A stretch of DNA of 21,288 nucleotides, taken from a virus. Position 1 is the first letter of the stretch. The number at the start of each line of letters is the position of its first letter. Of this stretch, positions 10,740 to 21,272 are shown piece by piece. The notes under the pieces were generated by a model. That model saw only the letters and a program-made list of their open reading frames with translations. It had not been told where the DNA came from and searched no databases. The DNA lies in the IMG/VR virus record IMGVR_UViG_3300025759_000850, positions 1 through 21,288 of that record; one strand, given 5' to 3'. Both the position numbers and the translations under genes were made by a program.

Positions 10740-11077
10740 TACTGTCGCTCCCCTTCCACTTCACCGAATGCTGTAATCGTCAGCGTATCTGCTACGCTTG
10801 CCTGCACGCCGAGGCTACCAGACCTGTCTATGTTGCGTATAGGGGCCGCAAATTCAATCATATATACTTCCCCAACTGCGACAGAAATCGTGTATAATAT
10901 CGCTGTGGACGTGTCGTAGGTGGTGCCATCAGCATCATGGTAGAGGCTTACGTCAGCACTCACAGCTCCTGTGTTAGTCACCATTACAAGATCAACCGTC
11001 CAAGGTCTGTCCTCTTGAATGAACGTGGTAGCTGTCGTGCCACTAGGTCTTGTCTGCGCTATCTGTTTCCGTGCCAT
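10739..11077 (-). CDS. Small beta-rich protein, probable virion component
   Basis: This is a 112-residue protein with a basic N-terminus (MARKQIAQTRPSG) and alternating hydrophobic/polar strands such as VDLVMVTNTGAVSADVSLYH and ILYTISVAVGEVYMIEF. It looks like a single small beta sandwich. There is no membrane segment. Its first 35 nt overlap the end of the preceding gene in another frame. The start is nevertheless well supported by GAGG 6 nt upstream of the ATG, and its stop overlaps the next start. Being coupled to the 404-residue structural protein suggests the two act together in the virion. Its function is unknown. Confidence 0.55.
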   Translation of the reverse strand: MARKQIAQTRPSGTTATTFIQEDRPWTVDLVMVTNTGAVSADVSLYHDADGTTYDTSTAILYTISVAVGEVYMIEFAAPIRNIDRSGSLGVQASVADTLTITAFGEVEGERQ

Positions 11078-11603
11078 CCAGTACCTCGTTAATGTCCTTA
11101 GTAGGTACGGCTGTGATTGCCGTGCCCGGTGATAAGTTCCACACAGGGACGCTGACTTGTCTCATAGCGTCCTCGTAGTATTCATTAAACTTCTGATAGT
11201 TCGGAGCGTTGGCTAATCTCTCGTAGTTCTCAAACCAATGAGCACCTCCCTTGTGATGTCCGTCTGCTCCGATCAGGTATATTGTCGTAGCGCCTAGCGC
11301 CTGCGCTGCTTCGATGGCCGCAGCACCTGATATGTACGCAACCACCGTGCAGACTCGACAGCCCTCTGGGGTGATGGTGGAGTTACCAACCACTAGCTGC
11401 CCTGAGAAACTAGAGATCACCTCCTCATAAAACTTTAGGAACCGCGTGTCGCGGCTAAATAGATAATCGGCCCACGGTAGATGCTCCACACCCTTGTTCA
11501 CCACCATGACACGACGCGAATCGTCCATGTCCCGCCACTGGGCTACCGAATCTAGTTGTCCCCTAGTTACACTCGGCCCACCGCCGACTATCAAAACTTC
11601 CAT
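11043..11603 (-). CDS. Rossmann-like protein with GGGPS motif (DUF115/MptE-like pattern)
   Basis: This is a 186-residue protein from the ATG at 11603. It opens MEVLIVGGGPSV, a Gly-rich nucleotide-binding-type loop. MVVNKGVEHLPWADYLFSRD follows at about 33-52, and SGAAAIEAAQALGATTIYLIGADGHH at 92-117, followed by HWFENYER. This order (GGGPS, VN, PWADYLFSRD, SG-AAI, LGA-IYLIG-D) resembles a group of phage and bacterial Rossmann proteins loosely related to DUF115/MptE-like and sialyltransferase-like enzymes, which act on nucleotide or sugar-nucleotide substrates. The actual reaction is unknown. The start overlaps the stop of the preceding hydrophobic protein (TAATG). An upstream extension of 25 residues is Arg-rich, out of character and overlaps that gene, so I reject it. 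The gene sits between the lysis cluster and virion genes. Confidence 0.55.
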   Translation of the reverse strand: MEVLIVGGGPSVTRGQLDSVAQWRDMDDSRRVMVVNKGVEHLPWADYLFSRDTRFLKFYEEVISSFSGQLVVGNSTITPEGCRVCTVVAYISGAAAIEAAQALGATTIYLIGADGHHKGGAHWFENYERLANAPNYQKFNEYYEDAMRQVSVPVWNLSPGTAITAVPTKDINEVLDGTETDSADKT

Positions 11604-11863
11604 TAGTCGTTCTTGCCCCAGCCTGTGTCGTTGAACACTTTGACCAGCACGCCTACGGAGGTGGCGATCACGGGCCATACGCTCTCAAACTCAGCCACGG
11701 CATCGTCTGCTGCTTCGTAGGTAGTCTCCAGTATGGAGCGAAGCGCTGCCAGACGTTGTTCACCCTTACCCTCACCGGGGATGGCTTCTTCTAACGCCCG
11801 TATTGCGACGATAATGGAAGGTAGTAACGATAGCACTGCACGTATAATTCCAAACCACTTCAT
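11603..11863 (-). CDS. Small hydrophobic protein of the lysis cluster, function unknown
   Basis: This is an 86-residue protein. Residues 3-24 (FGIIRAVLSLLPSIIVAIRAL) form a hydrophobic or amphipathic helix with one Arg inside. The middle (25-60) is charged and helical. Residues 61-77 (SVWPVIATSVGVLVKVF) are a second hydrophobic stretch. AGGAGA lies 5 nt upstream of the ATG. It follows the holin and lipoprotein genes and is followed by a TAATG-coupled Rossmann protein. It could be a second holin, an antiholin or another membrane-associated phage protein. Nothing in the sequence decides between these, and no known family is certain. Confidence 0.55.
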   Translation of the reverse strand: MKWFGIIRAVLSLLPSIIVAIRALEEAIPGEGKGEQRLAALRSILETTYEAADDAVAEFESVWPVIATSVGVLVKVFNDTGWGKND

Positions 11864-11872
11864 AGTATTCTC

Positions 11873-12064
11873 CTAAAGTTTCTGTAGTAGACAGCGACCG
11901 CCCACCGTATAGTAAGTGATCGCTGTAATCTCTTCTCTACTCGCTGTCAGCTCGCAAGCCGACCTTATTCGTTGTAATGACTGTTGAGACAGCGCCCCAC
12001 AGCCCAGCAAAGGCAGGCACAATAGTGACCAGAGCAGTAGCAATCGCGCCGATCTCTTCACCAT
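11873..12064 (-). CDS. Small lipoprotein overlapping the holin gene, outer-membrane spanin (Rz1-like) candidate
   Basis: This is a 63-residue protein with a classic lipoprotein signal: basic start (MVKRSAR), hydrophobic core LLLLWSLLCLPLL and lipobox LLGC with the lipidated Cys at 22. The mature part is only 42 residues, with two more cysteines (37, 58) and no Pro-rich region. The first 128 nt lie inside the holin gene in a different frame. The last 64 nt occupy what would otherwise be an empty gap up to the next Shine-Dalgarno site. A long purine site (12065-12077, GAGGTGGAGGTGA) directly precedes the ATG. Outer-membrane spanins are small lipoproteins often overlapped with other lysis genes, and they bridge to an inner-membrane spanin to disrupt the outer membrane. 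The nearby one-TM coiled-coil protein (12502-12230) is the natural partner. The role is inferred. The signal peptide itself is clear. Confidence 0.65.
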   Translation of the reverse strand: MVKRSARLLLLWSLLCLPLLGCGALSQQSLQRIRSACELTASREEITAITYYTVGGRCLLQKL

Positions 12065-12227
12065 TCACCTCCACCTCATACCCGCTGAAGACTACGAAGA
12101 CTGCGACAATAGCCATTAGAAGCCCTGAGACGGCCTCTACGCTCATTTGTCCTGTCTTCCATGCCTCAACATTGGCTACTCGTTTACCTTGCTTAAACAG
12201 GCTCAGAAGCGCTCTCAGCTTATTCAC
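11937..12227 (-). CDS. Holin, two transmembrane segments
   Basis: This is a 96-residue protein with a basic N-terminus (KLRALLSLFKQGKR) and two hydrophobic segments: TM1 about 30-50 (VEAVSGLLMAIVAVFVVFSGY) and TM2 about 59-84 (IGAIATALVTIVPAFAGLWG and on). A short acidic loop (EVEVNGEE) separates them and the tail is short and polar. Size, two TMs and location beside spanin-like genes fit a phage holin, which opens lesions in the inner membrane so that the endolysin reaches the cell wall. The start is a GTG, with GGGAGGTGG overlapping the stop region of the preceding gene. The acidic loop codons double as the ribosome-binding site of the embedded lipoprotein gene. Confidence 0.75.
   Translation of the reverse strand: MNKLRALLSLFKQGKRVANVEAWKTGQMSVEAVSGLLMAIVAVFVVFSGYEVEVNGEEIGAIATALVTIVPAFAGLWGAVSTVITTNKVGLRADSE
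12065..12077 (-). promoter_or_regulatory. Internal ribosome-binding site for the embedded lipoprotein gene
   Basis: On the coding strand GAGGTGGAGGTGA ends immediately before the ATG at 12064. It offers two AGG cores, the nearer one 3-4 nt from the start. It lies within holin codons for EVEV, so it may be partly forced by that protein sequence. Its match and position are what make the out-of-frame lipoprotein start credible. Confidence 0.55.
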
Positions 12228-12229
12228 GC

Positions 12230-12502
12230 CTATCCACCTCCCAATCGCTCGATTAAGCGATCTAACTTGTCATTGATTTGCTGGGTACGTTCCTTCATCT
12301 CAGACCTGAACCGTAGCAGAGACGCGTCCTGTGCCTCGTCTACCCTAAGCTGGAAATCTACCGTGCTTTCTAGCTTAGCTATTCGGTCTGTCAATGCGTC
12401 ATACGCCCCAAACCCAGACAGCCCTACCGTCAACACCGCTATGATATTCATAACGCTGATAGTCCTGTCCATCCTGTATCCATTACTTGGTTGTTTAGTC
12501 AC
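12230..12502 (-). CDS. One-TM coiled-coil protein, inner-membrane spanin (Rz-like) candidate
   Basis: This is a 90-residue protein from a GTG at 12502 (GGAGG 5 nt upstream). An ATG ten codons later is the alternative. A longer form starting 45 nt upstream would overlap the preceding gene and lacks a good site. Lys/Arg residues precede one TM segment (about 15-35, ISVMNIIAVLTVGLSGFGAY), which predicts an N-in, C-out orientation. Residues 36-88 are a charged helix with heptad-like hydrophobics (DRIAKLESTVDFQLRVDEAQ, then INDKLDRLIERL), i.e. coiled coil. This architecture is that of inner-membrane spanins. It lies just before the holin and the lipoprotein. Other one-TM coiled-coil phage proteins exist, so the spanin call is an inference from architecture and neighbours. 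Confidence 0.6.
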   Translation of the reverse strand: MTKQPSNGYRMDRTISVMNIIAVLTVGLSGFGAYDALTDRIAKLESTVDFQLRVDEAQDASLLRFRSEMKERTQQINDKLDRLIERLGGG

Positions 12503-12531: not shown

Positions 12532-13083
12532 TTAGATAACAGGCCACACCATTGTCGGTAGCTCAGAGATTAGCTCCTCTACCGTGGGCGGTGTTCTGTT
12601 TCCCGCCTCAACGTCCGATAGGATAGCATAGCATGTATCCCATACGTCGTCCCTCCAGTCGACACAAGCCTTACCTTCAAGACCGTATCTTCCATTCTTA
12701 GAAGCAGCATAAGTTGCCGCCGATAACATAGAATCGTAGTTCCTCTGACCGGCTACCACATCCATGTGATCTTGCACTGCCAGTTCGTATTGCCTAACAG
12801 TTTTTGCCCTGTATGCATCCTTCTCGTCCTGCGTCATCTCAACAGCAGACTTAGCAAGAATCCATGCGCCATCTATTAGAGTAGGCAACGCATCGTTTAC
12901 TATTTTATGCGTTATTGGGTCATAAGCAGGGTCTTGAGCTATAGTCACAGGGTGCATATCCCAATCAGCCAGCAATGTATCTGTTGGCGCTTTAGGAAAT
13001 GAAGTGTTCGGGTTATCGCGTCTAAGGTCACCGATTGAGTACGGATAAGTCTCGGCAACATTATTGGGTGCTTTTACGTACAT
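12532..13083 (-). CDS. Tail-fibre accessory / assembly-like protein
   Basis: This 183-residue soluble protein has two parts. The N-terminal part (about 10-60, YPYSIGDLRRDNPNTSFP through DWDMHPV) and the C-terminal part (about 108-178, YDSMLSAATYAASKNG, then VDWRDDVWDTCYAILSDVEA and VEELISELP) both match a pattern common in phage proteins encoded next to tail-fibre genes. Those are often annotated as tail-fibre assembly or accessory proteins. A helical, charged linker (about 83-105) joins them. It follows two appendage-like genes with a 10-bp gap and AGGAGA before the ATG, which fits a chaperone or tip partner for those proteins. The biochemical function is not established by the sequence. Confidence 0.6.
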   Translation of the reverse strand: MYVKAPNNVAETYPYSIGDLRRDNPNTSFPKAPTDTLLADWDMHPVTIAQDPAYDPITHKIVNDALPTLIDGAWILAKSAVEMTQDEKDAYRAKTVRQYELAVQDHMDVVAGQRNYDSMLSAATYAASKNGRYGLEGKACVDWRDDVWDTCYAILSDVEAGNRTPPTVEELISELPTMVWPVI

Positions 13084-20560: not shown

Positions 20561-20841
20561 TTAACCTTATCGGCCCAATAAGCAGCAGACATTTTACCCT
20601 TGGATATATTCTTGGCATGTCTAGCCTTAAAGGACTCTCGTCGTTTACGTTCAGCTTTGCTCTCCCCGGCTTTCTTGGGAGAACCTGAAACACCCTGCTG
20701 TCCGAAGCGTATGGTCTTAATCTTATCGCCTTCTTTCGCCACAACTACGTGTGATTTAGTAGGATGCTTAGGGGTACGCTTAGGTTTGTTATAACCCGAT
20801 ACTCCTGCTCTTTCCAATCTTGAATCTTTCTTAGCTGGCAT
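20554..20841 (-). CDS. Small basic conserved-type phage protein upstream of terminase
   Basis: This 95-residue protein is very rich in Lys/Arg. It opens MPAKKDSRLERAGVSGYNKP, continues with TPKHPTKSHVVVAKEGDKIK and IRFGQQGVSG, and ends with a basic helix and the aromatic tail AAYWADKVKW. I recognise the style from small proteins widespread in marine phages, but I cannot give a secure family name or function. Composition suggests nucleic-acid binding. The place just before terL is the usual slot of the small terminase subunit, but the sequence lacks an obvious helix-turn-helix, so that role is only a possibility. It overlaps the lysozyme stop (TGATG) with GGAGAGG upstream, and its own stop overlaps the terL start. 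Confidence 0.65.
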   Translation of the reverse strand: MPAKKDSRLERAGVSGYNKPKRTPKHPTKSHVVVAKEGDKIKTIRFGQQGVSGSPKKAGESKAERKRRESFKARHAKNISKGKMSAAYWADKVKW

Positions 20842-21272
20842 CAGTCCTCTCCGCAGTGCATACTCTCGATAGCGTCCCCGACATACTCAAACCTCGCCTT
20901 CACCCCGCTACGCTGAGCGCAGGCTACTCTGTAGTCCTCGTTGTCGTACCACTCCTCGACAGCTTCCAAGTACATTTTATTGTTGAATAGCCGCCTAGTG
21001 CGCGGGGACATCTGCCAGTCTCCACGGTAGCAAGCCACCACGATAGCGTCTTGTACTGATTGAGGGAGGAGGTCGAAGTCTGTCGTCAGGTGCCTCGCCT
21101 GCTGCTCGAAATGATCGAATACTTCAGGGAAGGGAATATCAGCCCAGTAACCAGTCTGACCAACACCCACCGTGACTACGCCCTTGGTGTCGCGATAAGG
21201 TACAGGGCTGTATCCTTCCCAAATTATAACTGGTAGATGCTTACCCTCGATCTGTCCGGGGTAGGCATCCAT
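20841..21272 (-). CDS. Endolysin, T4-type lysozyme (GH24)
   Basis: This 143-residue muramidase cleaves the MurNAc-GlcNAc bond of peptidoglycan. The catalytic triad is visible with exact T4-lysozyme spacing: E19 (IIWEGY), D28 (YRDTKG) and T34 (VVTVGVG), i.e. Glu-9-Asp-6-Thr. The C-terminus has the helical SGVKARFEYV segment expected of the family. There is no signal peptide or SAR-type TM, so export would need a holin. The holin candidate is about 8.6 kb downstream in the same orientation. The ATG at 21272 has only a weak site, and the frame stays open to the window edge (codons for AIRAV precede it). The true start may therefore lie outside, although 143 residues is already a normal length. 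A virion-associated lysozyme is a less likely alternative. Confidence 0.85.
   Translation of the reverse strand: MDAYPGQIEGKHLPVIIWEGYSPVPYRDTKGVVTVGVGQTGYWADIPFPEVFDHFEQQARHLTTDFDLLPQSVQDAIVVACYRGDWQMSPRTRRLFNNKMYLEAVEEWYDNEDYRVACAQRSGVKARFEYVGDAIESMHCGED

Follow-up and report, generated by a model that had tools for sequence, protein, structure and literature searches.

In the excerpts available from the survey by Kongari et al. 2018 (PMC6139136), spanins are described as embedded, overlapped or separated gene pairs or as unimolecular proteins, at least one cysteine is reported for 507 of 528 systems, and 31 phages are listed which possess a lipoprotein but no linked i-spanin. No spanin was identifiable in about 13% of the genomes surveyed, and the bias of gene callers against overlapping frames is named there among the causes of missing spanins (PMC6139136). 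The nearest overlap with a holin gene that we found in the literature is that of lydE on lydD in phage P1 (PMC9025707, in excerpt). Among the titles and opening lines of abstracts returned by our literature searches, no lipoprotein or o-spanin gene overlapping a holin gene was found, and none is reported in the excerpted texts of PMC6139136, PMC12596118, PMC9025707 and PMC9144972. The exported protein described here, which is read in the shifted frame of a holin-like gene, is probably part of the way in which the phages concerned break the outer membrane.

The DNA analyzed, referred to as the window, is an IMG/VR virus record of 21,288 bases, on the minus strand of which the genes 12502-12230, 12227-11937, 12064-11873 and 11863-11603 follow each other in this order. 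The gene at 11937..12227 (GTG start, 96 aa) encodes a holin-like protein with two transmembrane (TM) segments, as predicted by hydropathy for most members shown. The initial annotation had placed a 63-codon frame inside this gene, shifted by one base and running 64 nt beyond its stop, and recomputing the coordinates bore out both statements: the ORF (11873..12064, minus strand, ATG start) is offset by 163 nt, which equals +1, and shares the stretch 12064-11937 with the holin-like gene. The purine site noted ahead of it is likewise present at 12077-12065 on the minus strand (GAGGTGGAGGTGA) and is likely to serve as ribosome-binding site for the ATG at 12064 or a GTG at 12061. The product of 63 residues (MVKRSARLLLLWSLLCLPLLGC followed by GALSQQSLQRIRSACELTASREEITAITYYTVGGRCLLQKL) can be divided into a signal helix (approximately residues 4-21), the lipobox LLGC with Cys22, a linker (23-36) and a predicted beta hairpin (37-46/49-58); the LLGC lipobox, a mature part of 42 residues with cysteines at positions 37 and 58 and a composition that is not proline-rich had all been read correctly from the sequence. 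One detail has to be amended, as the ORF had been thought to end before the next AGGAG: its stop codon TAG (11875-11873) has two bases in common with the AGGAG at 11874-11870, which precedes the ATG of the next gene at 11863. This next gene, p86 (11603..11863, minus strand), encodes a small protein that has a hydrophobic helix at its N-terminus and contains the motif EEAIPGxGKGEQ, and is a frequent neighbor of the overlapping gene. On its other side, the gene at 12230..12502 (minus strand) encodes a protein of 90 aa with an N-terminal TM segment and a charged, coiled-coil-like part, the candidate i-spanin partner discussed below. Two further genes of this region were noted. The gene 11043-11603 in the lysis/tail region matches phrog_4603, annotated as alpha-2,3-sialyltransferase (E 1.2e-20). 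A protein of 183 aa (p183; 12532-13083) adjoins the cassette and is 80-85% identical in other contigs (L249-L252); in L251 its homologue is followed by different genes, which suggests that p183 moves between phages.

Several observations place the host gene in a lysis context. The PHROG family phrog_3428, annotated as holin, was matched by 3 of the 19 holin members introduced below (best E 0.0012), and endolysin-like genes lie beside or near the holin-like gene of relatives. Seven of the ten that were tested pass the Pfam cut-off for M15/VanY or lysozyme families, the other three being L204 (just under the cut-off), L184 (DUF5675) and L172 (no match). The presence of Pfam-supported hydrolases near the holin-like gene thus marks the locus as a lysis cassette. 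A lysozyme-like endolysin of the phage in the window (20841..21272, minus strand) does not adjoin the cassette; it scores 21.9 bits against PF00959, just below the cut-off of 22.3 bits, and matches the phrog_7 endolysin with an E of 4.6e-5. PF03245, the family of the lambda-type Rz, was found in none of the 20 source records at E <= 0.1, several of these being fragments, while the E. coli control was positive.

A single-protein scan of IMG/VR yielded a near-identical sister contig of 33 kb as the sole relative of the holin; since it has zero differences to the window over 12600-11501, it is uninformative on constraint. Relatives of p86, at 47%, led to L164, whose holin has 31% identity and is accompanied by a +1 lipoprotein ORF at the same place. 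Upstream of this holin, at L164:289-751, a second small lipoprotein-like ORF and then a gene resembling transglutaminase-like cysteine peptidases were observed by eye. Profile searches returned 13 loci for p86 and 24 for the holin, to which one MAG contig was added, so that all loci were fetched by similarity of the holin or p86 and independently of the overlapping frame. After grouping of near-copies, 19 divergent holin lineages were obtained, consisting of the window, uncultivated phages and one MAG, with rows of the holin alignment (A9) being 29-52% identical to the first row. L201, a fragment ending inside the holin, was left out of the locus count, and L175 and L185, which harbor similar frames in TM genes unmatched by the holin profile, stand outside the 19. 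In these two, the TM genes with the +1 lipoprotein-like frame lie ahead of p86 (L175:360-867 and L185:3427-3955); should these frames be real, more than one origin or transfer of the overlap would have to be assumed.

Megablast of the window against INPHARED gave zero matches, and tblastn against the same database with four holins (window, L171, L188, L202), with the lipoproteins of the window and L192, and with the i-spanin-like protein of the window and the p86 homologue of L171 gave nothing, or an E of 1 or more. Bacterial genomes gave a match in one MAG contig, and the single positive among 369 genomes was the same one. Relatives of the phrog_7595-type gene and of the MCP contained no further such cassette among the matches listed from tblastn of window proteins, nor did the two p183 loci that were examined add any beyond those counted. 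The nearest MCP relative, L083 (67%), was set aside, as by eye it has a different cassette with a lipoprotein that is not nested in the holin.

Relatives of p86 were identified in L164, L170-L173, L175, L176, L180, L184, L185 and L211, with the motif EEAIPGxGKGEQKLA, and 14 of the 19 lineages have a p86 match at the cassette, compared to none there in the remaining five. The gene is on the same strand in eight lineages, namely the window, L211 and six that had been reached by way of p86 in the first place, and is convergent in L188, L189, L193, L195, L205 and L206. In L164, L175 and L184, the start of p86 and the stop of the overlapping gene share 4 nt; in L172 p86 comes after a further gene, and in L173 and L176 it occurs with no overlapping gene visible.

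In all 19 lineages, the window included, no stop interrupts the +1 frame where the holin gene ends, and the frame continues for 34-148 nt beyond the holin stop; before grouping, the same was true of all 24 loci in which the holin is complete. The search for the same overlap in related phages, as proposed in the initial annotation, turned out positive in each of these holin lineages. We weighed this conservation against the reading that the ORF is a chance open frame, since hydrophobic TM segments, when read in the +1 frame, tend to give Leu, Phe, Ser and Cys and may thereby mimic a lipoprotein signal. For the window alone, such a reading has some appeal: upon shuffling of the holin codons the +1 frame stays open over the overlap in 10.9% of cases and a lipobox in hydrophobic context appears in 4.9%, the sister contig is devoid of substitutions, and the window is missed by the family profile when left out. 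The case for the ORF from the window alone is accordingly modest, and it is the set of divergent relatives that raises it above chance. Permutation of synonymous codons, done separately for the holins of 17 of the 19 lineages with 5,000 shuffles per holin, gave a product of about 10^-25 for an open +1 frame, a figure to be read as a measure and not as an exact probability because the lineages are related and the starts were chosen by the analyst; the +2 frame over the same stretch was open in 1 of the 17. A strict lipobox in hydrophobic context occurs in 10 of the 19 lineages compared to 0.31 expected (P 3.5e-15; codon permutation, all 19), a control that is important since TM segments read in the +1 frame are prone to resemble signal peptides.

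Further evidence comes from the part of the ORF beyond the holin stop. In this tail, L192 and L197 differ by 8 synonymous and 5 nonsynonymous changes and L196 and L200 by 18 and 11 (16 and 14 if whole codons are judged with the boundary codon included). Pooled over the two pairs, 26 synonymous and 16 nonsynonymous differences stand against about 25% synonymous expected (P about 1e-6), and the non-overlapping tail shows the pattern of purifying selection in both close pairs. Within the overlap itself, holin-synonymous changes numbered 5 in 107 nt versus 6 in 148 nt upstream for L192/L197 and 2 versus 5 upstream for L196/L200, one close pair each, so that there is no clear reduction of synonymous change in the holin overlap in the two close groups. 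The open frame in 19 of 19 lineages, the excess of lipoboxes and the selection on the tail already contradict a chance frame for the family, and we regard this reading as extremely improbable. Comparative sequence data thus support the +1 ORF as a real gene that overlaps the holin gene and is kept in relatives.

The members of the family have, by eye, a signal-like N-terminus and a cysteine some way after it. A lipoprotein signal had been recognized in the window and is present there and in most lineages; a cysteine within the last ten residues is found in 18 of the 19, and ten share the motif [VILFM][DE]G-x6-C, to which the tail of the window protein (YYTVGGRC) does not conform. The lineage counted as open across the holin stop that was excluded for the C-terminal cysteine is L205, which has the motif in another frame. 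At L205:4131-4540 the overlapping frame seems to be broken, with the C-terminal motif IDGLTIKVVCTF in another frame, due to a frameshift or an assembly error. The initial annotation had named stops or loss of the lipobox in relatives as arguments against the gene: no stops were encountered, and the lipobox cysteine is in fact lost in six of the 19 lineages (L170, L188, L189, L193, L195 and L206). In L164 and L190 (both with Pro at lipobox position -3) and in L210 the lipobox is imperfect with the cysteine in place.

AlphaFold2 modeled the window protein as a helix (4-21) and two strands (37-46 and 49-58) with a mean pLDDT of 71.7, the values being 82-87 over residues 41-60 and 64 over 31-40. 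In this model Cys37 would lie opposite Cys58 at the open end of the hairpin, as inferred from the strand register. For the long member L195 a beta-alpha-beta-beta arrangement, the first strand of which contains Cys68 and the last Cys110, was predicted at low confidence (pLDDT 59). Foldseek retrieved zero matches to the window model from BFVD at E <= 0.001, and comparison to solved structures gave one match with an E of 0.8. Leave-one-out profile tests were run on 19 sequences, 17 of them from the 19 lineages and two from L175 and L185. Eight of these were recovered at E < 0.1 (L190 at 1e-5, L192 at 1e-4, L211 at 4e-4, and L202, L180, L171, L170 and L172) and seven more at E 0.3-19, while the window, L175 and L185 were unrecovered at E <= 100 and L188 gave only an unrelated frame. 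As the window is missed by the sequence profile, it is placed in the family by frame, position and architecture. A scan of 21 members, some rows of which begin inside the signal, against PHROG, Pfam and NCBIfam identified no known family, with scattered weak matches of single members only, and the window ORF, its holin and p86 have weak matches only in PHROGs and Pfam.

Taken together, we propose that, as part of the lysis cassette, the +1 ORF encodes a small lipoprotein of the outer membrane, most likely an o-spanin paired with the protein encoded at 12230-12502, and assign this reading a probability of about 0.5. It is favored by a linked gene for a TM and coiled-coil protein upstream, the negative search for a lambda-type Rz in the source records, the absence of any other lipoprotein found in an insensitive scan, and two periplasmic cysteines. 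With respect to features expected of an o-spanin, the window has the lipobox LLGC, which is strict in 10 of the 19 lineages and lacks the cysteine in six, and the predicted periplasmic cysteines are Cys37 and Cys58 in the window and a C-terminal cysteine in 18 of the 19. The suggestion of an unrecognized o-spanin type is borne out in part: the type is unfamiliar to the family libraries searched, and its identity as an o-spanin is a proposal. The candidate i-spanin has a TM segment at residues 14-31 by hydropathy and a coiled coil by eye, would be oriented N-in according to the positive-inside rule, and matches phrog_7686 'Rz-like spanin' weakly (E 0.095), so that the gene can be said to have a putative i-spanin layout. 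Similar TM and coiled-coil genes were seen by eye near L171, L172 and L210. By eye, the upstream protein of L190 and L192 has a C-terminal TM segment instead, that of L188, L193 and L195 is a TM protein that looks C-in, and the 2.6 kb upstream in L180, L184 and L202 showed no apparent TM and coiled-coil gene; this survey left out L196. The scan for other lipoproteins by regular expression, which recovered the family's own ORF in two of six contigs and thus has a low sensitivity, found none in the window or in the two pieces that cover the sister contig. Four contigs of non-lipidated members yielded one to three other candidates apiece, none of which appeared to be a clear spanin by eye.

According to the proposed o-spanin function, ribosomes would use the purine site within the holin gene to start translation, which would entail co-expression with the holin. 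Signal peptidase II would lipidate Cys22 and the protein would move to the outer membrane, where a flexible linker may present a disulfide-clamped hairpin, held by Cys37-Cys58 or by intermolecular disulfides, to the coiled coil which the inner-membrane protein encoded at 12230-12502 would extend into the periplasm. Once holin and endolysin have acted, lipoprotein and partner together would disrupt the outer membrane.

Judged from the sequences, the main argument against an o-spanin are the six lineages without the lipobox cysteine, whose proteins look as if secreted; in addition, a clear partner was not seen near every member and the protein is not proline-rich. The six lineages leave room for a periplasmic holin regulator or a divergent function. 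Thus, it might be speculated that the protein is an exported, antiholin-like regulator, small, disulfide-bonded, periplasmic or lipidated and produced from the same transcript, which times lysis via the periplasmic loop of the holin or by envelope sensing. Such a role would be in line with a tie to the holin gene that holds throughout the 19 lineages, compared to the less regular one to the coiled-coil partner, and with a lipid anchor that is not universal (6 of 19 without the cysteine) next to a C-terminal cysteine kept in 18 of 19; in P1, lydE, annotated as a putative antiholin, likewise overlaps the 3' part of a pinholin gene (PMC9025707, in excerpt). However, retrieval of the loci through their holin or p86 builds in part of the link to the holin. 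By hydropathy, the two TM segments of the window holin are only about 13 residues apart, and the lipoprotein signal is far above chance. LydE, moreover, has no signal sequence by eye, and its removal left lysis unaffected in a plasmid test (PMC9025707, in excerpt). We therefore consider a regulator unlikely, if worth keeping in mind.

Alternatively, roles might be split, the lipoprotein members being spanins and the long non-lipidated members having another periplasmic job. The contigs of five of the six non-lipidated lineages measure 79-111 kb, the remaining one, the 23-kb L206, has a near-copy of 71 kb (L207), and p86 is convergent in five of the six, all of which would fit such a division. 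Both groups nevertheless have frame, place and C-terminal cysteine in common, and on the holin tree, which is weakly resolved, the lipidation label has to change 4 times, with 65 of 500 shuffles being as low, so that there is no clean split; divided roles appear improbable.

Small lipoproteins also act in superinfection exclusion in phages and plasmids, and one of the 21 members weakly matches the TrbK entry-exclusion lipoprotein (E 0.0093). An exclusion or other accessory lipoprotein that sits in the lysis operon so as to be expressed late would, however, hardly account for a holin overlap kept across divergent genomes and is a poor fit to the late cassette position, and with the TrbK match being single and weak among 21 members, we rate it as highly improbable. 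A bolder, rather doubtful reading is that the family represents a new lysis class, an exported, disulfide-clamped mini-protein from the +1 frame of a holin, the working part of which would be the C-terminal cysteine hairpin and not the lipid anchor. If true, formation of the inner-membrane hole would be coupled to failure of the outer membrane without a lambda-type Rz/Rz1 pair.

Irrespective of its exact function, the locus offers a clear case of a second gene maintained inside a holin gene over wide divergence, and nesting in a holin instead of an i-spanin gene would be a new genetic arrangement. A lipoprotein hidden where automated gene calling would not look may explain some of the spanin-less phages. 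With lambda Rz/Rz1, as excerpted from PMC6139136, the locus has in common a small lipoprotein with periplasmic cysteine that is encoded in the lysis cassette in the +1 frame within another lysis gene. In contrast to lambda, the host gene is a holin and not an i-spanin gene (PF03245 in 0 of 20 records), the protein is not proline-rich and the ORF extends beyond the stop of the host gene. The T4-type o-spanin PseT.2 resembles the window protein in not being proline-rich and in having two conserved cysteines (PMC6139136, in excerpt), and its description there as beta-alpha-beta can be set beside the low-confidence beta-alpha-beta-beta model of L195. Unlike the gene described here, PseT.2 is a separate gene outside the holin, and the two are likened by description, not by sequence. 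The lipoproteins of 'spanin-less' phages are similar in that their spanin partner is uncertain (PMC6139136, in excerpt), but the present one is nested in a holin gene and kept across divergent genomes. P1 lydE, finally, is also a small gene that overlaps the 3' part of a two-TM pinholin gene, lydD (PMC9025707, in excerpt); it differs by an offset of 104 nt (+2) and, by eye, by the lack of a signal sequence or lipobox, and LydE was therefore rejected as a homologue.
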